The translations under genes and the position numbers were made by a program. The notes beneath the pieces were generated by a model. The model saw only the letters and a program-made list of their open reading frames with translations. It was not told the origin of the DNA and searched no databases. Below, piece after piece: positions 24,893 to 60,976 of a stretch of 64,000 nt of DNA. The stretch covers positions 1,559,501 to 1,623,500 of the forward strand of contig CP054675.1 in the NCBI GenBank assembly GCA_013348845.1. The letters are read 5' to 3'. The stretch's first letter is position 1. Each line of letters opens with the position of its first letter. Source of the stretch: Candidatus Tepidiaquacella proteinivora. GTDB lineage: Bacteria; Bacteroidota; Ignavibacteria; Tepidaquicellales; Tepidaquicellaceae.

Positions 24893-24987
24893 TATAAATA
24901 GATTTTAGTTCTTAATTGTATTATATTCAAATTACAAAATTTTAATAAAAAAGGAACTTTAAAAATAAATTTTTGGTATTATATTTT

Positions 24988-25395
24988 ATGATTATGGTTA
25001 TTTTTAAAAAAGGGTTAAGAAGAATAAGAAAGAGCTTATTTTTAGCATTACTATTAATATTTTTAACATTTCAAAATAATCTATTCTCAGAAAACACTTA
25101 TCAAGATACTATTAAAGTTCATAATTCATGTAAATGCTCACAAAAATCATGCTGTGAAAATTCAAATTTGGAAACAGAAAACATTAGTTGTAAATGCTGT
25201 ATATCCAGTGAAGAACCTCTTGAAAAAAATTCATTTGTTGTTCTTATTTCAAATAATAAACAAAATGAAATAACAAAAGTTTCTGAAAATATTACAAGCA
25301 TCATACAAGTTTTCAAAAGATATAATGAAATAATACCTTATCAAAACTTAAATTTCCCACCCATATATATACTCGTCAAGAATCTTTTAATTTAG
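24988..25395 (+). CDS. Small cysteine-rich exported protein, function unknown
   Basis: The frame is open from TTG 24973; ATG 24988 gives a 135-residue protein with a basic N-terminus and one hydrophobic segment (SLFLALLLIFLTFQ), so it is secreted or anchored. The next segment holds clustered cysteines (NSCKCSQKSCCENS, then ISCKCCISS). The C-terminal half is ordinary and ends hydrophobic. It lies 64 bases upstream of the metallothionein-like YHS protein and shares its CKC-type clusters, suggesting a joint metal-handling role. No family is recognised. Confidence 0.55.
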   Translation: MIMVIFKKGLRRIRKSLFLALLLIFLTFQNNLFSENTYQDTIKVHNSCKCSQKSCCENSNLETENISCKCCISSEEPLEKNSFVVLISNNKQNEITKVSENITSIIQVFKRYNEIIPYQNLNFPPIYILVKNLLI

Positions 25396-25459: not shown

Positions 25460-26242
25460 ATGAAAACAAATAAAAAGTTTTTAATAAGTCTAATTATTTT
25501 AGTCTTATTCATTTTCTATTTAAACAGTTATAGCAGTGTAATTGATGACCCAAATTGTAAATGTGAAAATTGCAAATGTATCGAATGCAAGTGTGAAAGC
25601 TGCAATTGTAGTGTGTGTAACTGTGAAAACTGTAAATGTAATGAAGGAATTTGCTCATGTAATTCATGTAAGATGAAAGAGGGAAATGAATGCAAGTGCG
25701 AAAATTGTGATTGCGCTAAATGTATTCATCAATCCAGTGCAATCAACTACAATGAGAATTGCAAGTGTATGGTATGTGAATGTGGAAATTGTAAATGTGA
25801 GGGAATTGGAAATTCCTCTGGAATAAATACTCAGGAATTAATTCTCCGATTAGTTAACAATATAAATAATGACTATGAAAATCTTGCCGGCAATATAAGA
25901 GAAAGGTGTTGTAGTAAAGATGAAATTTATATTCCTAAAGTAAAAAATGACACTCTTTTGACATGTGTTGTTTCAAAAGAAACTATAACAAATAAACCGA
26001 TAAAATTATCTTACTTAGGAAATGAATATGTGTTCTGTAGTAATGATTGCCTTGAAAAATTTAAATCCGAACCGATGAATTACATAAAAGAACAGTTATT
26101 ATGCCCGGTTATGGGTGATGAAGCAGAAAAAGAGCTATTTACAGTTTACAAAGGAATAAAATATTATTTTTGCTGCAAAGGATGCATAAAAAAATTCAAT
26201 GAAAATCCGGAAAAATATATTGATGGCTATAAAGGAAATTAA
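25460..26242 (+). CDS. Exported metallothionein-like Cys-repeat protein with two YHS-like domains
   Basis: A 260-residue protein with an N-terminal membrane/signal segment (~residues 8-27). Residues ~32-115 carry about 26 cysteines in units of CxCxx (CKCENCKCIECKCESC and so on), a metallothionein-like metal sponge. Residues ~170-260 hold two tandem YHS/TRASH-like modules: TCVVSKETI...YVFCSNDCLEKFKSEP and CPVMGDEAE...YYFCCKGCIKKFNENPEKY. YHS domains bind copper or other soft metals. The fusion suggests a periplasmic or surface trap for Cu, Zn or similar. A hairpin terminator follows, then cydAB. Which metal is bound cannot be read from sequence. Confidence 0.75.
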   Translation: MKTNKKFLISLIILVLFIFYLNSYSSVIDDPNCKCENCKCIECKCESCNCSVCNCENCKCNEGICSCNSCKMKEGNECKCENCDCAKCIHQSSAINYNENCKCMVCECGNCKCEGIGNSSGINTQELILRLVNNINNDYENLAGNIRERCCSKDEIYIPKVKNDTLLTCVVSKETITNKPIKLSYLGNEYVFCSNDCLEKFKSEPMNYIKEQLLCPVMGDEAEKELFTVYKGIKYYFCCKGCIKKFNENPEKYIDGYKGN

Positions 26243-26271: not shown

Positions 26272-26303
26272 AAAGAGGGCAGAGAAGAAATTCTCTGCCC
26301 TTT
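26272..26303 (+). terminator. Hairpin terminator after the Cys-rich YHS gene
   Basis: AGGGCAGAGAA/TTCTCTGCCCT forms a perfect 11-bp stem with a 4-base loop, preceded by A-run and followed by a short T-run, 30 bases past the stop codon. It separates the Cys-rich genes from cydAB. Confidence 0.75.
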
Positions 26304-26413: not shown

Positions 26414-27850
26414 ATGGAATTAGAATTTCTTTCAAGATTACAATTTGCAATAACTGTTGGATTTCATTTTATTTTCCCGCCTATAACAATTGGTTTAGCA
26501 TTAATGCTTGTAATCATTGAATGGATTGGTTGGAAAAAGAATGATAATGAATATATAAAACTCGGGAAATTTTTCGCAAAAATTTTAGCTGTTACTTTTG
26601 CTGTTGGTGTGGCATCAGGGTTAGTAATGGTATTACAATTTGGTACAAACTGGGCAAGATATTCAGTTTTTGTTGGTGATATATTCGGAGCACCACTTGC
26701 TGCAGAAGCGGTATTTGCATTTTTCCTTGAATCAACCTTTCTTGGGCTTTACCTATTTGGTAGAAATAAAGTTTCCAAAGGTGTACATTGGTTTTCTATC
26801 CTAATGGTTACGATTGGTTCTATGATATCTGCTTTCTGGATACTGGTTGCAAACTCATGGCAACAAACCCCGGCAGGTTTTGCAATTCAAAATATAACTA
26901 CCGGTGAAATAATAAAAGATATAATTCCTGGAAAGGGATATGATCCTACACAATATCGGGCAGTATTAACTGACTTTTGGGCAGCAGTATTTAATCCAAC
27001 AACATTAAATAGATTTATTCATGTTATACTTGCTTCATTTATCACAGGTTCGCTTGTTCTTGCCGGAAGTTGCGCTTATATTATCTTAAAGATAAAAAGA
27101 AATTATAAAAATAATGATACTGAAATTCCCGATGATGATAAACAAACAATCAACATTGCAGAAAAAGGATTAAAGAAAGGATTAATTTTGGGATTAATAT
27201 TTTCCCTGTTACAACTTTTTCCATCTGGTCATGAACATTCGAGAGATGTATTTAAATATCAGCAATCAAAATTTGCAGCAACTCAGGGATTATATCATTC
27301 AACAAATGGCGCAAGGTTATTATTATTTGGACTTTTAACGGGCGATTCTATTCCACAGATTAAAGCAGAAATATCAATTCCCGGATTGTTAAGCTTTCTG
27401 GTGTCTGGTGATTTTAACGCAAGAATAAAAGGTATGGAAGAAATACCAGCTGAAAACAGACCACCTATGTGGCTTCCTTTTGTTTCTTATCATAATATGG
27501 TTATACTTGGAATGTTGTTTATAGCAATTAATGCCTGGGGAGTTTTGCAGATATTTAGAAAAAAATTATTAAGTGGGAAAAAATATCTAAGGATATTATT
27601 CCTGTTTATACCTTTACCTGTAATAGCATCACAATTCGGATGGATCGCAGCTGAGGTTGGGAGACAACCATGGACAGTATTTAATATTTTAAGAACTAAA
27701 GACTCTTTTTCAAATGTTGTACCTGTTGAACAGGTCTGGTTTACATTGATTCTTTTCAGTGTTATTTATTTAATAATGCTTTTTGTATACATATTTATTT
27801 TTATGCGTGAATTAAAACACGCACCAGTAATACTAAAAGAAAAAATATAA
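26414..27850 (+). CDS. cydA: Cytochrome bd ubiquinol oxidase subunit I
   Basis: A 478-residue membrane subunit carrying hemes b558, b595 and d. The N-terminal FHFIFPPITIG holds the heme b595 histidine, the region QFGTNWARYS is conserved, and GWIAAEVGRQPW (~416) is the family signature in the quinol-oxidising half. At 478 residues it is shorter than E. coli CydA (522), as expected for short Q-loop forms. It is followed 21 bases later by cydB. The enzyme reduces O2 with high affinity at the cytoplasmic membrane and supports microaerobic life. Confidence 0.95.
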   Translation: MELEFLSRLQFAITVGFHFIFPPITIGLALMLVIIEWIGWKKNDNEYIKLGKFFAKILAVTFAVGVASGLVMVLQFGTNWARYSVFVGDIFGAPLAAEAVFAFFLESTFLGLYLFGRNKVSKGVHWFSILMVTIGSMISAFWILVANSWQQTPAGFAIQNITTGEIIKDIIPGKGYDPTQYRAVLTDFWAAVFNPTTLNRFIHVILASFITGSLVLAGSCAYIILKIKRNYKNNDTEIPDDDKQTINIAEKGLKKGLILGLIFSLLQLFPSGHEHSRDVFKYQQSKFAATQGLYHSTNGARLLLFGLLTGDSIPQIKAEISIPGLLSFLVSGDFNARIKGMEEIPAENRPPMWLPFVSYHNMVILGMLFIAINAWGVLQIFRKKLLSGKKYLRILFLFIPLPVIASQFGWIAAEVGRQPWTVFNILRTKDSFSNVVPVEQVWFTLILFSVIYLIMLFVYIFIFMRELKHAPVILKEKI

Positions 27851-27871
27851 AAAACCAAAAATTTTATAAAG

Positions 27872-28888
27872 ATGGATTTAAATATAATTTGGTTTATTTT
27901 AATTACAGTTCTTCTTTCGGTATATGCAATATTGGATGGTTTTGATTTCGGGGTTGGAATATTGCATATAGGAGCAAAAACCGAAGAAGAAAAAAGGATT
28001 CTTATGAATTCTATTGGTCCCGTGTGGGATGGAAATGAAGTATGGTTGCTTGCTGGTGGTGGTTCTATTTTTGCGGCTTTTCCCTTTGTATATGGAACTG
28101 TATTTAGTGCTTTTTACCTTGCTATATATTTATTGTTACTTGCTTTATTTTTCAGAGCTATTTCATTTGAGTTCAGGGGTAAAGTTGAATCAGCTAAATG
28201 GAAAAAATTCTGGGATTTCTCCTTTGAATTTGGTAGTTTTTTACCCCCGATATTACTTGGTGTAGCTTTTGGTAATATATTGAGAGGATTACCTTTAAAT
28301 GAAAACAGAATATTTGTTGGCTCATTTATAGAATTACTCAATCCATATTCAATATTAATCGGGGTTTTAACTTTCGTAATATTTCTTATGCAAGCTTCAA
28401 TTTATCTTACACATAAGACAGAAGGGAAATTACAGGAGAAATATGAAAGACTTGCAGTTAACTTTTGGGTAGCATTTATCATACTTTATGTAATAGCAAC
28501 AGTAGCAACTTTATTTGTATCGAAATTTCTTTTTATAGGTATAACGAAAAGTGTTTTATTCTGGATTCTATTCTTATTATTTTTATTTTCCATTATAATG
28601 ATACCAGTTAACCTGAAAGCAAAAAATAATAAAAGAGCATTTTTATTTTCTTCAATAACAATATTTACTTTAATAGGAATTTCCGCAGTTAGTTTATTCC
28701 CAAGGTTTGTTCCATCTCTTATTGACCTAAATTATAGCTGGGATATTTACAATGCGTCTTCCACACCTAAAACATTAACCACAATGTTAATTATAGCTTT
28801 AATAGGAATGCCATTTGTTATTTTTTATACAATATTTATTTATCGTGTATTTAAAGGAAAAACTGTTTTAACAAAAGATAGCTATTAA
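27872..28888 (+). CDS. cydB: Cytochrome bd ubiquinol oxidase subunit II
   Basis: A 338-residue, eight- or nine-helix protein. The N-terminus has the CydB signature YAILDGFDFGVGILH, followed by NSIGPVWDGNEVWLL and FRAISFEFRGKVES. It pairs with CydA to build cytochrome bd. It is in the same transcription unit as cydA, and the sirtuin gene follows after 23 bases. No small CydX-like frame is evident after it. Confidence 0.94.
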   Translation: MDLNIIWFILITVLLSVYAILDGFDFGVGILHIGAKTEEEKRILMNSIGPVWDGNEVWLLAGGGSIFAAFPFVYGTVFSAFYLAIYLLLLALFFRAISFEFRGKVESAKWKKFWDFSFEFGSFLPPILLGVAFGNILRGLPLNENRIFVGSFIELLNPYSILIGVLTFVIFLMQASIYLTHKTEGKLQEKYERLAVNFWVAFIILYVIATVATLFVSKFLFIGITKSVLFWILFLLFLFSIIMIPVNLKAKNNKRAFLFSSITIFTLIGISAVSLFPRFVPSLIDLNYSWDIYNASSTPKTLTTMLIIALIGMPFVIFYTIFIYRVFKGKTVLTKDSY

Positions 28889-48056: not shown

Positions 48057-48340
48057 AACTTTTTTTTAAATTATTTTATTCTCAAATATAATAAATAAAA
48101 TACTTATATAAAAATTAATCAAATAGAGAAAAATTCCTTTGAATAATAATCAATAAAAAATTACATCAAACCGTAAATTGCAAAAACCAGACAATTATTA
48201 AATATAATATCTTCTGCAAATTTTCATAATTTTATATACAATTTTTACAAGCTGGGATAACAAACAATTTTCTCTTAATAAGAATGTTGTAATAAAACAA
48301 TTTTTTATTAACAACTATTATTTTTATTAAAAATTTTTTG
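48057..48340. other. AT-rich region before the repeat array
   Basis: No coding frame or hairpin of note is visible. This is the leader of the non-coding stretch that runs to 49360. Confidence 0.4.
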
Positions 48341-49062
48341 CCATCCCATACATAGCCATAAATTTACCATTACTCTTTATTCTAAAATTTTAGCTCATAT
48401 CTTATACAGCCATATATTTACAATTATTTTTTTCAAGAAATTCAGTTCATATCTTACACAGCTATATATTTATCATTATTCTTTATTCAAAAATTCTTGT
48501 CCATACCTTACACAACTAAATATTTAAAATTATTATTTATTCAAAAATCTTAGTTCACACCTTACACAATTATATATTTACTACTTTCCTTTATTCAAAA
48601 TTTTTAGTCCATACCTTACACAGTTATATTTATTATTAATTTTTTCAAACACTTCAGTTAATACCTAACACAACTATAAATTTACCATTATTTTCTTTTC
48701 AAAAATTTTTTGTTCATACCTTACACAAACATAAATTTAGAATTATTTTTTATTCAAAACTTTTAGTCCATACCTTACACAGCTATATTTATTATTATTT
48801 TTTTTTCAAACACTTCAGTTAATACCTAACACAACTATAAATTTACCATTATTTTCTCTTCAAAAATTTTTGTTCATACCTTACACAGGCATAAATTTAG
48901 AATTATTTTTTATTCAAATCCTTTAGACCATACCTTACACAGCTATATTTATTATTAATTTTTTCAAAAATTTAAGTTCATACCTTGCACAACTATGTAT
49001 TTACTATTATCCTTTATTCAAAAATTTTTGTTCATATCTTACATACCCGTACATTTACCAAC
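48341..49062. repeat. Degenerate 54-bp tandem repeat array (about 14 units)
   Basis: Units begin at about 48341, 48394, 48446, 48500, 48554, 48608, 48658, 48713, 48767, 48819, 48873, 48927, 48977 and 49031, so the period is 50-55 bp, usually 54. Each unit holds the core ATACCTTACACA followed by AT-rich sequence and a TTCAAAA stretch. Units 6-8 and 9-11 match each other far better than their neighbours, giving a higher-order repeat of about 160 bp, and unit 12 resembles 6 and 9. Both strands are full of stops, so it is non-coding. There are no constant repeats with unique spacers, so it is not CRISPR. The flanks are kbl and a GIY-YIG gene. The function is unknown. Confidence 0.88.
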
Positions 49063-49773: not shown

Positions 49774-50215
49774 TCTGATAACCGGTTGCTGAGTAGCGAA
49801 GCAACTGTTACCAGGTCGTCGAGTAGCGAAGCGTATCGAGACGACGACTATCATCGGTCGTTTCGATTCGAACTACTTTCCACTCAACGACCTTGCTTCA
49901 ATCAGTTGTCGAGTAGCGAAGCAACTGTTACCAGGTCGTCGAGTAGCGAAGCGTATCGAGACGACGACTATCATCGGTCGTTTCGATTCGAACTACGTTC
50001 CACTCAACGACCTTGCTTCAATCGGTTGTCGATTAGCGAAGCAATTGTCACCAGGTCGTCGAGTAGCGAAGCAACTGTCACCAGGTCGTCGAGTAGCGAA
50101 GCGTATCGAGACGACGACTATCATCGGTCGTTTCGATCCGATCTACGTTCTACTCAACGACCTTGCTTCAATCAGTTGCTGAGTAGCGAAGCGTATCGAA
50201 GCAACCGACAACAAT
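49774..50215. repeat. 120-bp tandem palindromic repeat array (REP-like)
   Basis: The 120-base unit repeats almost exactly: 49801-49860 is identical to 49921-49980. A third copy carries an extra ~40-base internal duplication (50041-50080 region). Units are built from the core GAGTAGCGAAGC with inverted repeats such as CAGTTG...CAACTG and GTCGTC...GACGAC, so they can fold into stem-loops. The sequence is clearly more GC-rich than its flanks. The one long frame through it (49786-50226) is only a by-product of a repeat length divisible by three. The array lies upstream of the GIY-YIG gene. Confidence 0.85.
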
Positions 50216-52781: not shown

Positions 52782-53583
52782 CCCCCTCAACAATCTTTAT
52801 CTCCTCCTTCGTCAACCCATACAACTCACACACCAGCCTGTCTATCTCCCGCTCCCACTGGCTCGTGTCTGCCTGTGGGCTATTCTTCTTCACCGCCAGT
52901 ATCTTATCCACCAATGTCTCGATTTGATTTACAATGTGCTGATTGGATGCAGTAATGGGGGGAAGGGGCATTATTTCAACATATTGATTTGATAACCTAA
53001 AACCAGTAAACCCATATTGATGGACTATCATTTCAACATATTTATAAATCAATTTTGAATTTAACAATGCCATTATAAATTTCAAATTTTTACCTGTGAA
53101 AAATGCCATACTATCAAGTATGAAAACACTTGGTTCTACTAAACAAAAAGTTGGTTCTTGGGTAATTCTCTGCCACACCACCTTCTCCTTCTCAAACTCG
53201 GGGTAGTAGGCGATTTGGTCCTGGGTTTCAAACCATTTGTTGCCCGTTTTTTTACGTGCATCAAAACCCAAATTGGGATATTTCTTTCCCGATTGTTCTA
53301 ATTGTCTGATGTCAAAGTGGTCTAAAAAATATTTTTTAAGGGCAGGATAATCATCAATGTTTAATTTCAACGCCGGAAATGTGCCTATCACCCACAACCC
53401 TACCCATTCGTAATAGTAGCGTTTAATATCGCGACCACGAAGGATAGGTTTTATAATTGTCATAGTACGTTTTTGTTCTTCTTTATCTCTGCAATTTAAC
53501 AATATCTCTTTGAGCTTTTCGATGTTATAATAAACGCTTCGTTTAAGCCGGTTAATACTCCACGATAAATTTTTACATCCCAA
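52771..53583 (-). CDS. Target-recognition (TaqI-like) C-terminal domain of the Eco57I-like methylase, split off by a frameshift
   Basis: The frame contains KLKEILLNCRDKEEQKRTMTIIKPILRGRDIKRYYYEWVGLWVIGTFPALKLN, FETQDQIAYYPEFEKEKVVWQRI, TGFRLSNQYVEIMPLPPI and the coiled C-terminal helix, all typical of the specificity part of type IIG or single-polypeptide R-M enzymes. It begins where the upstream methylase frame (ending 53496) should continue; a missing base near 53540-53560 explains the break. The first ~20 listed residues are out-of-frame. Its stop codon lies in a REP palindrome. Confidence 0.82.
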   Translation of the reverse strand: MGCKNLSWSINRLKRSVYYNIEKLKEILLNCRDKEEQKRTMTIIKPILRGRDIKRYYYEWVGLWVIGTFPALKLNIDDYPALKKYFLDHFDIRQLEQSGKKYPNLGFDARKKTGNKWFETQDQIAYYPEFEKEKVVWQRITQEPTFCLVEPSVFILDSMAFFTGKNLKFIMALLNSKLIYKYVEMIVHQYGFTGFRLSNQYVEIMPLPPITASNQHIVNQIETLVDKILAVKKNSPQADTSQWEREIDRLVCELYGLTKEEIKIVEGEKL

Positions 53584-56500
53584 TCTTTAAGAGGTTTGCC
53601 TATTTGCTCAATTTTCTCTTTAAGGCATTGCTCGGCACTGCTCCCTATAAACCATGCATCTTGTTTTAGTTTGTTTAAGATTACTCCTCGTTCAGTAAGT
53701 TGTTTTGATATTTCAATATTATTATTTTCTTTTTGTAAAGTAACTGCCAAAAGTTTGTTTTTATTTTTAGCTTTCTGTATCAACAGGATATTTGTATCTA
53801 CAGTTGCACTTTCGAAAATACCAGGACCTAAATCAATCAATATAATTGGATTATACTTTAAAAAGAAAGTTCTTAACTTTTCGCCATAACCGGCACGCAT
53901 CCATTTGTTGGATGTGATAAAACATAAGTAACCATTGGGTTTGAGTAATTGTAAACCCTTTTCATAAAATAGACAATAAATATCACCCATACGATCGAAG
54001 GTTTCGTAGCCTTTACCATCATAGAGGTCTGCCAGTTGCCCTTCATTTTTCTGCAATTGAATATACGGCGGATTAGCAATTACAACATCAAAGCCATTAT
54101 TGTGTCTAAAAACTTCAGAAAAATGGATTTTAAAATCAAATGTTACTTTATAACCGAGACTTTTTTCAGTGTTTTTCAAAATATTGAAAATTTTCTCATC
54201 AATTTGTTTTTTCAGAGAATTTTTCTCTAATTGTCTTGCTTCATTAAAGAATTTTTCTTTCAGATTTTCAATCTCTTCTAATCCCCTTGGTGTATATGGA
54301 TAACTGAGTAATGAATTTCCACAGGTAACTTTATAGTCAAGATTTGGCAATGGTTGTATTTTATAAAAATCTTCTTCATCAACTATCAAAGAAAGCCAGA
54401 ATCTTAATTTACATATTTCAACAGCGCCTGAGTCTATATCAACTCCATAGAGAGACTTTTCAATACAATGACGCTTAAAATTATAAGTTGTTCGCTCTCT
54501 CAACCAGGATGGTTGAGTTACTGTATCACAAGCATCCTGCTTGTGTTTATCATTGGAAATGACTTTAGGATTATCTTCAATATATTTGCGTATTCTTTCA
54601 AGTTGTTCAGGATTTCTAATTATATGGTCAAATGATTCGTGCATCCATAGTTCACCTTCTCTGCCAGTTAATTTATTTATTTGATTAGCAGTATAAGATT
54701 TCCAGGAATGCATAATTTGTGACAATGACCATTTCCCTTTGGGAATTACAATAACATGAACATGATTAGGCATAATTACATATTTATCTAAATAGTATCT
54801 ATCGTTATTAAAATAATTTAAAGCATCTTCAACAATTTGCCTGCATTTTGCATCTTTTAATATACACGAACCATGTCCATTATCTAATAGTTCATCATAT
54901 CTCTTTGAAAAAAGACGATAATACTCTATTTGTTTCTCTTTATTTAAGTTATGTAAATCTGATATACTTTCTATTTTATTTTCTTTAAACCAATTCTCTC
55001 TTTCCATTCGTATATTTTCAGCCACATCCTTGGGAATTGAATCATACAACCTGAATGTAACAAAATATGCTTTGCCCTCTTGTTCCCAATGTGGTAAATT
55101 ACGATTTTTTTTACTTACAGGTTCATCGGGGGCAAAGTAAATACTCAACCAGAATGGTTGAGTTACAATATAATTTGTTAAAACATTCCTTGCTTTTACT
55201 ATTTCAAGCATCATTCCTACCGGGAATGCACCAGAACCAACGGCAGAATCGCAGACCCTGATATTCGCTAATTTATCATCTATCAGTTTTGCGTTATTCC
55301 TTATACTTTCAGGCATTTTACTTTTTATGGTTGTGCTTTTCTGTTTCCCGGACTTTATATCTTCTTCCTTTTGTAAAGCAGTTTTCTCATTTTCAACAAT
55401 ATGCTCTCCATGTTTGATAAATAATTCTATATCTTCTTTATTTACCTTGCCTTCAAGTTCAGTTGCGAGATAGTTTATTAAACTTTCCTGACACATATAA
55501 TGGACGATTTCACGGGGAGTATAATAAGTGCCCTGTCCTTTACGCAGATTTTCTTCAATCAGGTTTTCAAAGACCTTACCGAGTAATTCCGGGTCAAGTG
55601 CAACTTCCTTTTCAAGGGGTTCATCTTCCTGAACAGTAAAATTGTATCTATCAAAAACATCAAGGATACCACTGCCAATATCTCCTTCTTCTGTCTTTTT
55701 ATTGTTAGAAAATAATTCATTTGGAATTATTATATCTGTTCGCTTCCAATCGTAGTTATTAATTGGTTCAAATAAGCCACCATTTAGGAATGGTATTCTG
55801 CAATCAAAATATTTTGAATAGGTTGCGTCTGCCTGATTTAATCTCGGATCATTAAGGGTGTTGTAAAATAGTATTTCAAGATAATCATTAAAGAAATTTT
55901 TCTTTTGCTGACTGCATTTAGTAAATAAAGAACGCAGGAAGTTCCTGTCACCATCTCCCCAGTTTTTATCTTTGGGGACACCGAGCCATCCCTTCTTTTG
56001 TAAGAAATAAAGAAAAACAATCTGTCCTAATAACTTTTTGGAAAAATCTGTGGTATTAATTTTTTTCTTCTCAAAATCTTCCCGGACGTCTTCATCTTTT
56101 ATGACAATTTTATCAATAGAATCCTTTAATTTTATGTAAAGGTCACGGTATTTATTAAGGAATTCTTTTGTTACTTTTTCTACACTAAATGCTTTTTCAA
56201 GTTGTTCTAATGTAGGATTATTTATATCGTCCTGTAAGAGAGGAAGCAGTTGCTGTTGAGCAGTATGATTGGGCTCGTTTTTACCAACTAAAAAAGAATA
56301 TCTGCGAGCTGGTGTGAATTCCTCTTCACCTTTTGGTCTGCCAGTTTTGGTTTGAGTAAGTTTGTATTCCATTTTAACCAGAGAGAAACGCCAGTCATCA
56401 AGCCCTGGTGAAACAAATGCCACGATAGCAGCATCTTTCTCTGTATCAGAGCCATATTTGCCGGTTAAGTATCCTGCGACGAAATTTCTTTGCATTGTTC

Positions 56501-56759
56501 TGGCACGTTCAATAGAGGTCTCTTTATTGAGAAAAACTATCAGGATGTCAATTCTTTTGTCTTCTGATACATATTTGCCAACACGTTCGTATTTGTTAAT
56601 ATATTGCTTAAAAGTATCGGGTATATACTGCCCATAATACTCAAATGGCTCCAGAGAAATTTTATTAAATAGATTTTTTACAAACTTGACATACCTTTCT
56701 TTTTCAAAAGGATTCTCAAATGTCTCTTTAATAAGATTTATAGCAGATTGTTTATCCAT
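53496..56759 (-). CDS. Eco57I-like adenine DNA methylase/endonuclease with an in-frame RAYT transposase insertion
   Basis: A 1087-residue frame. The N-terminal part resembles the nuclease domain of type IIG/ISP enzymes (possible ExK in MEYKL). SAM motif I is CDSAVGSGAFPVGM (~503-514), and catalytic motif IV is ANPPY (~895-899). Between them, residues ~540-746 are foreign: a complete RAYT (HWEQEGKAYFVTFRLYD, IMPNHVHVIVIP with His666/His668, GELWMHESFDHIIRN, RKYIEDNP with Tyr726), framed by two REP hairpins read as VTQPFWL and VTQPSWL. Methylase sequence resumes with TTYNFKRHCIEKSLYGVDID. The frame then shifts before the specificity domain (52771-53583). It starts 3 bases after the YhcG gene. 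Confidence 0.88.
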   Translation of the reverse strand: MDKQSAINLIKETFENPFEKERYVKFVKNLFNKISLEPFEYYGQYIPDTFKQYINKYERVGKYVSEDKRIDILIVFLNKETSIERARTMQRNFVAGYLTGKYGSDTEKDAAIVAFVSPGLDDWRFSLVKMEYKLTQTKTGRPKGEEEFTPARRYSFLVGKNEPNHTAQQQLLPLLQDDINNPTLEQLEKAFSVEKVTKEFLNKYRDLYIKLKDSIDKIVIKDEDVREDFEKKKINTTDFSKKLLGQIVFLYFLQKKGWLGVPKDKNWGDGDRNFLRSLFTKCSQQKKNFFNDYLEILFYNTLNDPRLNQADATYSKYFDCRIPFLNGGLFEPINNYDWKRTDIIIPNELFSNNKKTEEGDIGSGILDVFDRYNFTVQEDEPLEKEVALDPELLGKVFENLIEENLRKGQGTYYTPREIVHYMCQESLINYLATELEGKVNKEDIELFIKHGEHIVENEKTALQKEEDIKSGKQKSTTIKSKMPESIRNNAKLIDDKLANIRVCDSAVGSGAFPVGMMLEIVKARNVLTNYIVTQPFWLSIYFAPDEPVSKKNRNLPHWEQEGKAYFVTFRLYDSIPKDVAENIRMERENWFKENKIESISDLHNLNKEKQIEYYRLFSKRYDELLDNGHGSCILKDAKCRQIVEDALNYFNNDRYYLDKYVIMPNHVHVIVIPKGKWSLSQIMHSWKSYTANQINKLTGREGELWMHESFDHIIRNPEQLERIRKYIEDNPKVISNDKHKQDACDTVTQPSWLRERTTYNFKRHCIEKSLYGVDIDSGAVEICKLRFWLSLIVDEEDFYKIQPLPNLDYKVTCGNSLLSYPYTPRGLEEIENLKEKFFNEARQLEKNSLKKQIDEKIFNILKNTEKSLGYKVTFDFKIHFSEVFRHNNGFDVVIANPPYIQLQKNEGQLADLYDGKGYETFDRMGDIYCLFYEKGLQLLKPNGYLCFITSNKWMRAGYGEKLRTFFLKYNPIILIDLGPGIFESATVDTNILLIQKAKNKNKLLAVTLQKENNNIEISKQLTERGVILNKLKQDAWFIGSSAEQCLKEKIEQIGKPLKDWDVKIYRGVLTGLNEAFIITSKSSKRYC
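54499..54545. repeat. REP hairpin pair at the downstream edge of the embedded RAYT
   Basis: CTCAACCAGGATGGTTGAG (54499-54517; with TTAC, i.e. GTAA on the minus strand) is an 8-bp stem with a 3-base loop. Next to it is CACAAGCATCCTGCTTGTG (54527-54545), another perfect 8-bp stem. Both are translated in the methylase frame as QDACDTVTQPSWL. Confidence 0.88.
54522..55143 (-). mobile_element. RAYT (Y1/HUH transposase) module inserted in frame in the methylase
   Basis: About 207 codons that encode a full RAYT domain with the HUH motif NHVHV (His666, His668) and catalytic-type Tyr726. It has no stop codon or own start that interrupts the host frame and lies on the host's coding strand. Hairpins of one REP family occur at both ends (54499-54521 and 55144-55166), in the same orientation. 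The combination is like a REP-RAYT unit captured within a coding sequence. Confidence 0.82.
55144..55166. repeat. REP hairpin at the upstream edge of the embedded RAYT
   Basis: CTCAACCAGAATGGTTGAG with the adjoining TTAC (GTAA on the minus strand). It differs from the other copies by one loop base and is translated as VTQPFWL. It is in the same orientation as the copy at 54499. Confidence 0.87.
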
Positions 56760-57793: not shown

Positions 57794-60700
57794 TCATTCT
57801 CCTTTTGTAACCAGATACTCAGAAAGTATTACTTCTCGTGGACCTGAAGGCTGTCCTGGCAATTCAGATATTGGTGCTGTAAAAAATGATTCTGGAATGG
57901 AACTCCTTATTATTCCATATATCTTCAGATGACTATTTTCTTTTCCAAGTTTTTTTATAATATTTTTTGATGTTTGTTTAGGCAAAGTTCCTTCTTCAAG
58001 GAGATTTAAAACCTTTCTCAGGTAGTCCTCGTCATCTTCAGTAAAGCCCTTCATTTTTAATATTGCCTTTATTATATTTAATAATCTTGCGTCACTACTT
58101 TTACCGCCTTTAGTCTTAACTTCCTGAATATCTTCAATTAATGATAATTTAAAAGCATTTTTGTTCTTGTCTAAAAAATCGTAATATTTTTTGCCTATTT
58201 TTTCTCGCTTAGTGTTTTTATCTGCTTTCAATATTTCTACAGTTTGAAAGAAGTCAAGTTCTTTTGTCTCTTCTTCATTACTGATAAACATTTTTCTTAA
58301 TTTACCTTTTCTGAAAAAGGTAATACAAGCATCCTGCTGGTGGTCATTATATCTCAACCAGGATGGTTGAGTTACTTTGGCGCTTCTTGCTTTTTTAGGT
58401 AGGTGTTTTATTTTCTCAAATAAATTCGGTGCACTGTCTCTTATATTTCTAATTTCAGAAAGATATTTAAGTTCTGACTCTTCTTGCTCTTCTCCTTCAA
58501 TGACTTCTTTAGAATTCAACCTCTTAAAAAGCTCAAATGATGAAACTTCTTCGCCATCAGTTAAATAAGCTGCATCTTCTCCAAGGATATCGTGAAAAGC
58601 CTGCAACTTTCCAATAGCCGCTTCTTCTAACTTTATTTCTTCATTGGATTGAACTGTTGGGAAAAAATTGTAAATAAAAATCTTGTCAAACTTTGTATCT
58701 ACTCTGTTTATACGACCTACCCTCTGAATTATACGAATAGGATTCCATGGAATATCATAATTGATAACCACATTAGAGCGATGCAGATTAACTCCTTCGG
58801 AAAGGATATCAGTAGTAATTAATATTTTTATATCATCTTTAGGGGTTTTGCTCTTGGGGTCAAAGTTTTCTACTATCTTTTCTCTGACAGGAGCACCTGA
58901 TTTGCTGGAATATGATATGACAGCGTCGTCATATATACTCTTTAAGTTCTGTTCAAGGTATTCTGCGGTTTCCATTGACTCGGTAAAAACGATTATTTTG
59001 TTTTCTTTCAATATTTTTTCTGAAGATAATTTGTGTTTAAATTCCTCAATTTTAGGGTCTGTGGTTATGTCCTTCCAGAGCGTTTTGATTTCTTTAAGTA
59101 TTTTTAAATCGTCTTTCAGGTCTTTAATGAATTCTGGTATAAATTCATTCGCTTTGTAATCCCGGACTTTTTCTTTTTCAACTAATTTTATTATTTCGAC
59201 TATATTGTCATTCTCTAAAAGGTCAAATATTTTATTTGTATATTTTTTGCTGATATAAATAGTCCCTTTATCAAACATGCTTATAAATTGTTCGTAGGAA
59301 TATATAAATCTATCCAGTGTATTTTTAAAAGCAAAGAAACTGCTTTCAAGTCGTTTAACAAGCAAAACCTTCATAAACCTTCTTAAGTTACGTTGTCCTA
59401 CTTCTTCTTCAGGTTCAGGATATTTTAAATACAAGAGTGGTGTATATCTGGCATATTTAAAAAGTTTTATTTTGGAAATAGTTTCATTAAATATGGTATT
59501 GGTTCTTTTATCAAATTGATAATATAGTTTCTTTGGTGGTTCTACATCCGGGAACTTTAATCCTTTCTTTTCAAGGTCTTTAATAAAATATTCTTTTATG
59601 TCTTTTCTTGTTCTTCGCACTATCAGATATTTTAGGACATCTTCTCTTATCTTTTTTGAGTTCTCTTTGATTATTGAGATGTAAGTATTAAAGTCGGTTA
59701 ACCTATCAATTTCTTTTAGCCGATTCTGTAACGAACTAAAATACTTTTCCAAATTCTTCAAATTGGGAAGGGTGCTATTCCGTCCTTTCTGAAACAATTT
59801 TATTTGACTTAATATATCCAAAGGAGTATTATTTTGAGGAGTTGCAGAAATGAGAATAACTTTTTTACCCCAACATATCTGTTTTAATTTTTCATAAGTT
59901 TGAGTTGATTCATTACGAAAACGATGTGCTTCATCTATAAAAACATTTTTATAGTTCCTCACCTTAATTTTTTTAATTATTTCGTCTAATTTACCTAATG
60001 ATTCAACAGTTGCTGGAACATGAAAATCCTGGAATGTATTTTGCCAATAATCTTTAAGGATTGGCGGACAAATAATGAGATTACGACCATCTAACTGTTG
60101 TGCCAGCAGAGCAGAAATATATGTTTTCCCAAGACCCACTACATCTGCCAGAAATACACCGCCATACTCTTCTAATTTATTCTTAGCATCACTGACAGCT
60201 TCACGTTGATATTCAAGATTCATAAAATCCTGTGGAAAATAAGTCGTAGTTACTTCCTCCTGGTCAAGATTTATTTTTTCTTTCAAATATTCATACAAAA
60301 ACTTTAAGTAGAGTTCATAAGGAGTTATGTTATCATTGAGCCACGTCTTGTTCGTAATTGTATTAATATATTCTTCTGAAACATCTACCGATTTTTTCCA
60401 CAAATCATTGAATGCACGAATAGCAAAATTGTAATCAGATGGGTTTTTAAGTTCAACATTAAATTCAAGGTTATCAACAAGTCCTGATAGTGTGAAGTTG
60501 CTTGAGCCGGTAATAACTCTCCCAATATCCCTATCACCTTTTCTAAAGGTCATAATGTACACCTTTGCGTGTAAATTTTGTGACGGGTATGCTCTGATTT
60601 CAATTTTCCCATTCCTGATCCATTCAATAAATTTATTAATTCCGGCTTCAATTTCAGGCTTATCTTCTGAAAGTTCTGTCACCTTTAAGATTTGTTCTTC

Positions 60701-60976
60701 TATTTTTAATTTAGTTTCATAATGAGAGAAACTAAAATTTTCCTGATTTTCTTCCTGTCCAAGTTTTATATAATTCAGAGTTTCTCTATCTGTACCAATA
60801 CCGATGAGAATCCTGATTTTTTCAGTACTTTCAAGGGGAGTACAAATTTCATAAAAACCAGCCACATTAAAAAATGCAACCAAACAATCAAAAAATCGTG
60901 TATCTTTAATTAATGTTCTGAATCTTTCTTTTAATGTTTGCCCCGGTTCATTAGTGATAAATGTTAAGTCTGTCAT
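57794..60976 (-). CDS. PLD-domain SNF2-family helicase (defence-type)
   Basis: A 1060-residue protein. Residues ~1-190 are a phospholipase-D-like nuclease domain (QNLHAKVYIMTF, VITGSSNFTLSGL). The SNF2/DEAD helicase follows: YQREAVSDAKNKL, Walker A ADVVGLGKTYIS, DEAH box FIDEAHRFRN, LISATPQNNTP, then the C-terminal helicase with IIVFTESMETAEYLEQ, ILITTDILSEGVNLHRSNVVINYD and QRVGRINRVD. Residues ~868-884 (VTQPSWLRYNDHQQDAC) are REP-derived peptide. Helicases with N-terminal PLD domains occur in DISARM-like and R-M systems; here it heads the operon with YhcG and the methylase. Confidence 0.9.
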   Translation of the reverse strand: MTDLTFITNEPGQTLKERFRTLIKDTRFFDCLVAFFNVAGFYEICTPLESTEKIRILIGIGTDRETLNYIKLGQEENQENFSFSHYETKLKIEEQILKVTELSEDKPEIEAGINKFIEWIRNGKIEIRAYPSQNLHAKVYIMTFRKGDRDIGRVITGSSNFTLSGLVDNLEFNVELKNPSDYNFAIRAFNDLWKKSVDVSEEYINTITNKTWLNDNITPYELYLKFLYEYLKEKINLDQEEVTTTYFPQDFMNLEYQREAVSDAKNKLEEYGGVFLADVVGLGKTYISALLAQQLDGRNLIICPPILKDYWQNTFQDFHVPATVESLGKLDEIIKKIKVRNYKNVFIDEAHRFRNESTQTYEKLKQICWGKKVILISATPQNNTPLDILSQIKLFQKGRNSTLPNLKNLEKYFSSLQNRLKEIDRLTDFNTYISIIKENSKKIREDVLKYLIVRRTRKDIKEYFIKDLEKKGLKFPDVEPPKKLYYQFDKRTNTIFNETISKIKLFKYARYTPLLYLKYPEPEEEVGQRNLRRFMKVLLVKRLESSFFAFKNTLDRFIYSYEQFISMFDKGTIYISKKYTNKIFDLLENDNIVEIIKLVEKEKVRDYKANEFIPEFIKDLKDDLKILKEIKTLWKDITTDPKIEEFKHKLSSEKILKENKIIVFTESMETAEYLEQNLKSIYDDAVISYSSKSGAPVREKIVENFDPKSKTPKDDIKILITTDILSEGVNLHRSNVVINYDIPWNPIRIIQRVGRINRVDTKFDKIFIYNFFPTVQSNEEIKLEEAAIGKLQAFHDILGEDAAYLTDGEEVSSFELFKRLNSKEVIEGEEQEESELKYLSEIRNIRDSAPNLFEKIKHLPKKARSAKVTQPSWLRYNDHQQDACITFFRKGKLRKMFISNEEETKELDFFQTVEILKADKNTKREKIGKKYYDFLDKNKNAFKLSLIEDIQEVKTKGGKSSDARLLNIIKAILKMKGFTEDDEDYLRKVLNLLEEGTLPKQTSKNIIKKLGKENSHLKIYGIIRSSIPESFFTAPISELPGQPSGPREVILSEYLVTKGE
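58325..58375. repeat. REP hairpin pair read through in the helicase gene
   Basis: CTCAACCAGGATGGTTGAG (58353-58371, followed by TTAC) and a decayed ACAAGCA-TCC-TGCTGGT (58325-58344). They match the pair at 54499-54545 but in the opposite relative order, and are translated as VTQPSWLRYNDHQQDAC. Confidence 0.85.

Follow-up and report, generated by a model that had tools for sequence, protein, structure and literature searches.

The 260-residue protein described here is encoded in a stretch of 64,000 nucleotides of the genome of Candidatus Tepidiaquacella proteinivora, hereafter called the window. Judged from its sequence, it is a member of a narrow and previously unnamed family of Ignavibacteria, for which the designation "exported tandem-YHS proteins" is used. 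We consider it reasonably probable that the protein takes over copper from CopA and acts as a Cu(I)-thiolate sink, either in the periplasm or anchored in a membrane and facing the periplasm. Gene context supports the narrowing of the metal to copper(I), the window's own link to copper being indirect; we infer that copper is bound, which redox state the cysteines are in, and in which direction transfer goes. The domains are already known. New, as far as the open-access literature shows, is their combination with export. The features of the region are collected in Table 1.

Table 1. Features of the region around the cysteine-array gene (window positions)
Feature	Position	Strand	Basis or remark
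Small Cys-rich partner, exported, 135 aa, ending in ..NLLI	24988..25395 (ORF 24973-25395)	+	ORF; alignment A2
Gene of the Cys-array and tandem-YHS protein	25460..26242	+	ORF, 260 aa; PF04945 twice
Signal-peptide-like N-terminus, residues 1-26, lipobox absent	25460..25537	+	Read off the sequence; predicted helix 5-22
Metallothionein-like array, residues 33-113	25556..25798	+	26 Cys, CxCxx period; predicted disordered
CC pair, residues 150-151, in the linker between array and YHS	25907..25912	+	ERCC also in G002 and G001 orthologues
First YHS module (Cys 169, 193, 197)	25955..26092	+	PF04945, 39.5 bits
Second YHS module (Cys 215, 238, 239, 242)	26096..26230	+	PF04945, 44.9 bits
Hairpin with 13-bp stem, terminator-like	26274..26303	.	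Between Cys-array gene and cydA; z -6.3
cydA and cydB, cytochrome bd oxidase	26414..28888	+	ORFs; CydA by Pfam

The open reading frame delimited in an earlier sequence-only reading proved to be exact, and its product contains 35 cysteines in total. By eye, the N-terminus consists of MKTNKK, a hydrophobic stretch and NSYSS, with similar ends in relatives (..NSYSQ or SNTYSQ). This signal-peptide-like start supports the exported nature that had been claimed, apparently by means of a Sec-like signal. About 26 cysteines in some 85 residues, arranged in CxCxx units, had also been claimed, and exactly 26 were found within the array. Residues 32-114 (83 residues) contain these 26 cysteines in 12 CxC and 10 CxxC motifs and no CC, with 19 cysteine pairs at a five-residue spacing, one histidine and one aromatic residue (a tyrosine). 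A composition with 26 cysteines, dominated by CxC and with a single histidine and a single aromatic residue, is typical of thiolate-cluster proteins. Against the background of the window (229 cysteines in 18,360 residues of open reading frames of at least 120 amino acids), the cysteine density of the array has a binomial probability of 4e-29, and the cysteine fraction of 13.5% is the highest among the window open reading frames examined. The epithet "metallothionein-like" is appropriate as an analogy, in view of the Cys-dense CxC/CxxC pattern, and not as a statement of membership. No metallothionein family model of Pfam or NCBIfam matches up to E = 10, HMMER being poor on biased sequence, no metallothionein in the PDB matches the array alone, and a protein of 260 amino acids is not of low molecular weight; membership was therefore dropped.

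The two YHS modules that had been proposed are both present: the whole protein scores 75.4 bits against PF04945 (cut-off 30.3), and either copy passes the cut-off alone. Other family-model matches in Pfam and NCBIfam are few, weak and below cut-off. Cys 169, 193 and 197 are invariant in alignments A1 (14 of 14 rows) and A3 (28 of 28 rows); Cys 215, 238, 239 and 242 are invariant in A1 (14/14 rows), and 238 and 242 also in A3 (28/28). These three to four conserved cysteines per module are candidate metal ligands. Structure prediction, which had been suggested as a check, was informative for one half of the protein. In the AlphaFold2 model the YHS pair, including most of the second module, has a pLDDT above 90, and residues 22-123 have a pLDDT below 50, which predicts disorder for the array but is weak evidence for a Cys-rich stretch. 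The YHS domains of hydroxylases come out on top in a Foldseek search, at a best E of only 0.03, and VIA-align likewise gives a weak match to a hydroxylase YHS domain (Z 5.1, rmsd 6.3 over 56 residues) in a list that consists mainly of hydroxylases and ribosomal L24e-type chains and from which a free YHS protein is absent. The solved hydroxylase YHS domain is metal-free, according to an excerpt of PMC4626032.

The genome that holds the window (G000; 2.40 Mb in one contig, 98.7% complete) gives one match to the protein in an own-genome search, and no further YHS domain was found in it beyond this gene. A pattern-based scan of 84,980 reference genomes, in which records close to the window were possibly omitted, retrieved 13 relatives, all of them Ignavibacteria according to the records. 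With a double-YHS profile 4 of 395 phylum-wide genomes match, all from the window's own family and a single sister family within its order, and the pair therefore defines a narrow family. Matches at E<=1e-3 are obtained in 58 of 99 relatives, many of them through a single YHS only. The suggested search for the same architecture was fruitful. An orthologue in G002 also has the array and is 53% identical across its whole length, and 48 distinct double-YHS proteins, including that of the window, were gathered from the loci.

In these 48 members the YHS pair is well conserved and the N-terminal tail varies from 0 to 33 cysteines. There are 28 in the window protein (the 26 of the array and the CC pair), 26 in G002, 33 in G008, 31 in G020, 18 in G019, 16 in G006, 14 in G016, 12 in G001, 11 in G043 and 0 to 9 in the remaining members. 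The design of the tail differs as well: CxCxx units in the window's genus, of which three genomes were covered, CC-rich tails in G008 and G020, and CKMNKEE repeats in G009 and G028. In the tree inferred from the YHS region, many branches of which have weak support, about five distinct changes are needed to account for tails of at least 10 cysteines. Odd totals occur (33, 31, 11, 9), and cysteine spacing is not conserved between relatives; this free variation fits a sponge and not a disulfide fold. A separate observation concerns G007, a genome without COX1, where an exported stand-alone protein of 113 amino acids (L044, 3204-3545) contains 15 array-like cysteines and lacks YHS.

Several known systems resemble parts of this protein. 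Beyond the Ignavibacteria, the nearest tandem-YHS pair found forms the N-terminal part of heavy-metal ATPases of rhizobia; all 48 plasmid records that matched are rhizobial, and nine of the ten listed carry the annotation heavy-metal P-type ATPase. In the P1B ATPase WP_231285764.1, encoded beside cueR, a CC pair is likewise followed by two YHS modules with similarly placed cysteines, and its identity to the window protein is 30% over 128 columns. There, however, the pair constitutes the N-terminus of the ATPase, presumably cytosolic, and is followed by a CPMH-type heavy-metal motif, whereas in the window protein it is free-standing, exported and provided with a 26-Cys array. With metallothioneins (SmtA, MymT, Cu-thioneins) the array shares a high density of CxC and CxxC and a near lack of histidines and aromatic residues. 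Bacterial metallothioneins are nevertheless small (MymT, 4.9 kDa) and are treated as a cytosolic copper pool in the excerpted text of PMC7558416, in contrast to the window protein, which is exported, 260 amino acids long, fused to YHS and matched by no metallothionein model. Csp1 is, in the same excerpt (PMC7558416), an exported bacterial Cys-rich store of Cu(I), and the window protein is likewise exported and Cys-rich. Csp1 has a Tat signal, and its Cys-lined four-helix bundle is pre-formed, whereas the window protein has a Sec-like signal and an array that is predicted to be disordered; a four-helix bundle is absent from its model, but the pLDDT is below 50 across the array. Finally, an excerpt of PMC4626032 relates that in an adenylyl cyclase of Mycobacterium phlei the YHS domain gives a response to copper, the other transition metals tried being without effect. 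The YHS domain is thereby tied experimentally to a copper-specific response, but this cyclase is a signalling enzyme with a single YHS, neither exported nor Cys-rich. The combination of a metallothionein with a YHS domain was not found in the open-access literature, and the architecture of Cys array, YHS and export is unpublished as far as that literature shows. Among the matches listed, work on secreted, extracellular, periplasmic or exported metallothioneins is nearly all on animals.

The link to copper comes from the gene neighbourhoods of relatives. TolC-CusB-CusA genes lie just downstream of the member gene in G006 and G021. The CusA of G021 (L074) scores 962 bits against E. coli CusA and 597 against the zinc pump ZneA, and when aligned to 3t51 it has methionine at each of the three positions of the Cu(I)/Ag(I)-site triad, which we take to be residues 573, 623 and 672. 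In G013 a CopA ATPase and an AraC-type regulator are encoded beside the member gene, and exported CopZ-like CxxC HMA proteins adjoin four members. In G001 and G017 the member gene is followed by the gene of a 70-aa HMA protein and then directly by an ACT cluster; in G013 it is the CopA gene that lies between. In all three genomes COX1 lies on the contig of the member gene, about 10-13 kb away from it. In total, a copper-type or ACT gene was found within 6 kb of just 13 of the 48 distinct members, at loci several of which are short. At L045, 8100-9764, a CusB-type adaptor carries a heavy-metal binding domain at its N-terminus and an HMA domain at its C-terminus.

A TonB-dependent receptor whose conserved plug motif is of the CCDLSGCF or ACCDLSGCF type (for example L065, 8379-10616) is encoded within 6 kb of 19 of the 48 members, and a receptor of the family type is carried by 45 of the 99 relatives. 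It resembles siderophore receptors. Copper import in the manner of OprC was rejected: the solved matches listed are two colicin I receptors, one of them the best match, and a SusC homologue, not OprC. At E<=1e-60 the receptor is absent from G000, G002, G006, G007, G008, G019 and G020 and present in G001 and G016. In the 45 of 48 rows that are usable, it is adjacent to none of the 8 members with at least 10 tail cysteines, as against 17 of the 37 with fewer (Fisher P = 0.017). A replacement of the receptor by Cys-rich tails is not claimed, the 3-5 informative pairs of an independent-pairs test being too few.

Upstream, the neighbouring Cys-rich exported protein that had been noticed turns out to be the usual partner of the family. 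With one-gene-per-place models, a partner-like gene was found upstream in 41 of 53 loci, a total that counts duplicates and four single-YHS loci; a looser rule for open reading frames places one upstream of 38 of the 46 distinct members with enough flank. The two counts disagree on L048 and L085; where a receptor gene lies between (e.g. L066, L067, L093), the looser rule misses a partner that the one-gene-per-place models find. Partner sequences are too divergent for family models. Their hallmarks, recognized by eye, are CC pairs and a PP..[LI]xI end, and in these respects, as in being small and exported, the partner is reminiscent of HYC_CC_PP proteins (NF047658). The window partner (P0002) itself is, however, unmatched by that model (cut-off 28), and only one of 26 partner relatives matches (L045, 6232-6621), at 24.7 bits and thus below cut-off, so that an assignment to HYC_CC_PP was dropped.

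Downstream, the position of the gene just ahead of cydAB is as it had been described, and the order of the Cys-array gene, cydA and cydB is kept in G002. A functional link, by contrast, is less well supported, given the strong hairpin in between and given that cytochrome bd is not known to carry copper. The same place in G002 (L053, 982-1009) is occupied by another hairpin, one that carries a T tail. A terminator scan called the window hairpin on the minus strand only; the T run on the plus strand is weak, and stronger in G002. On account of the hairpin in between, a single operon of the Cys-array gene and cydAB was discarded, and cydAB is probably on a separate transcript, with read-through from the Cys-array gene into cydA as something that may occur. 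Four of the 48 double-YHS genes (window, L053, L097, L075), in three genera, have cydA within 6 kb, and it may not be by chance alone that double-YHS genes are found close to terminal oxidases.

Elsewhere in the window, an open reading frame of 1087 amino acids for an Eco57I/N6-methylase (53496-56759, minus strand) contains an in-frame Y1 transposase domain (residues 648-730), IS200-like and by eye of the RAYT type, with VTQP[SF]WL peptides on both flanks; judged from sequence, a mobile element appears to reside here, in frame, within a methylase gene. VTQPSWL with a QDACIT peptide recurs in frame in the neighbouring PLD-helicase frame 57794-60976 (58319-58375, minus strand), which points to a small repeat element that has spread in frame from gene to gene. 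Tandem-repeat blocks occur at 48317-49060 (54 bp x 14, also with periods of 160 and 319 bp) and 49791-50192 (units of 120/150 bp); these 120/150-bp units keep an open reading frame open.

The inventory of the host bears on the proposed function. G000 encodes one HMA-bearing P1B ATPase with CPC, which is CopA-like, about 0.76 Mb from the Cys-array gene; around that gene no copper gene was recognized in the window. No CusA-type pump was found in G000 or its sister G002 at E<=1e-100, no multicopper oxidase of the Cu-oxidase_3 type in G000, G001 or G002, and no haem-copper oxidase (COX1) in G000 or G002. DsbB and VKOR, the two proteins searched for, are both absent from G000, G001 and G002, and hence no standard route to disulfides was found. 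If CopA exports Cu(I) to a periplasm for which no such pump, copper oxidase or standard disulfide maker was found, a thiolate sponge would be needed. It can be proposed that CopA would pump Cu(I) out of the cytosol; that the YHS pair would accept it at an ordered thiolate site, as might the tandem-YHS N-terminus of rhizobial copper ATPases; and that the flexible 26-Cys array would store Cu(I)-thiolate clusters in the fashion of metallothioneins. The small Cys-rich partner probably cooperates at the envelope. In a host where neither a CusA-type pump nor a multicopper or haem-copper oxidase was found, the protein would then be the main periplasmic copper defence. The tail does not seem to be a simple replacement of CusA, since in G006 a 16-Cys tail and CusA occur together.

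The same periplasm, with its need for a thiolate sponge, is the reason for preferring sequestration to delivery. Of the scavenging or delivery of metal that the sequence-only reading had envisaged, the metal link is retained and scavenging or sequestration fits better, while for delivery no haem-copper oxidase or Cu-oxidase_3 client was found in this organism. Delivery would mean that the protein passes copper on to a respiratory oxidase or another cuproenzyme, beyond storage. The member genes ahead of the ACT cluster in G001, G017 and G013 (with an HMA or CopA gene between), the COX1 genes of the same contigs, and the four members with cydA nearby, from three genera, could be read in this way. 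However, the two clearest CxCxx arrays, those of G000 and G002, occur without COX1, Cu-oxidase_3 is missing from G000, G001 and G002 alike, leaving no such client found, and cytochrome bd is not known to contain copper, so that delivery appears unlikely. A role in buffering zinc, cadmium or some other soft metal, or in the binding of iron-sulfur clusters, is in our view equally improbable. Metallothioneins do bind several metals (PMC7558416, in an excerpt), and the TonB-dependent receptor of the family is siderophore-receptor-like, with the colicin I receptor as best solved match, but the neighbours are of the copper type (CusA with its Met triad, CopA, CopZ-like HMA proteins) and the homology is to rhizobial copper ATPases.

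A structural array, that is, a disulfide-linked rod or surface domain, or else a redox or thiol buffer, would be in keeping with its repetitive nature and with the frequent oxidation of exported cysteines. The absence of both DsbB and VKOR from G000, G001 and G002, the odd totals, the unconserved spacing and, as weak evidence in a Cys-rich stretch, the predicted disorder all speak against it, and it is regarded as very unlikely. The array might also be a little-used repeat expansion that has drifted, with only the YHS pair and the partner protein being of importance; the wide variation of the tail in length and pattern (0 to 33 cysteines) and the many relatives without an array would agree with this. 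Yet tails of at least 10 cysteines require five changes on the tree and recur in different designs (CxCxx, CC-rich, CKM repeats), which argues for selection for cysteine, and G000 and G002 share the array even though their YHS pairs are just 64-67% identical. Low-complexity drift is regarded as very improbable, and the Cu(I)-thiolate sink remains the preferred reading.

A wider evolutionary scenario can be put forward tentatively, with more doubt than confidence. The Ignavibacteria might have evolved exported metallothioneins about five times, by the growth of Cys arrays onto an exported copy of a tandem-YHS module of the copper-ATPase type. In lineages without CusCBA and CueO the sponge would make up the entire copper defence of the periplasm, as a third strategy next to outer-membrane efflux and oxidation of the metal to Cu(II), enabled by a periplasm that does not force disulfides.

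If the reading as a copper sink is true, an exported metallothionein-like array on a YHS pair would show how a Gram-negative-type cell can hold copper in its periplasm without a Cus pump or a copper oxidase. YHS domains would then gain a physiological role that can be tested. The tails of 0 to 33 cysteines on one type of YHS pair would moreover constitute a natural series in which the length of the array can be related to metal capacity.
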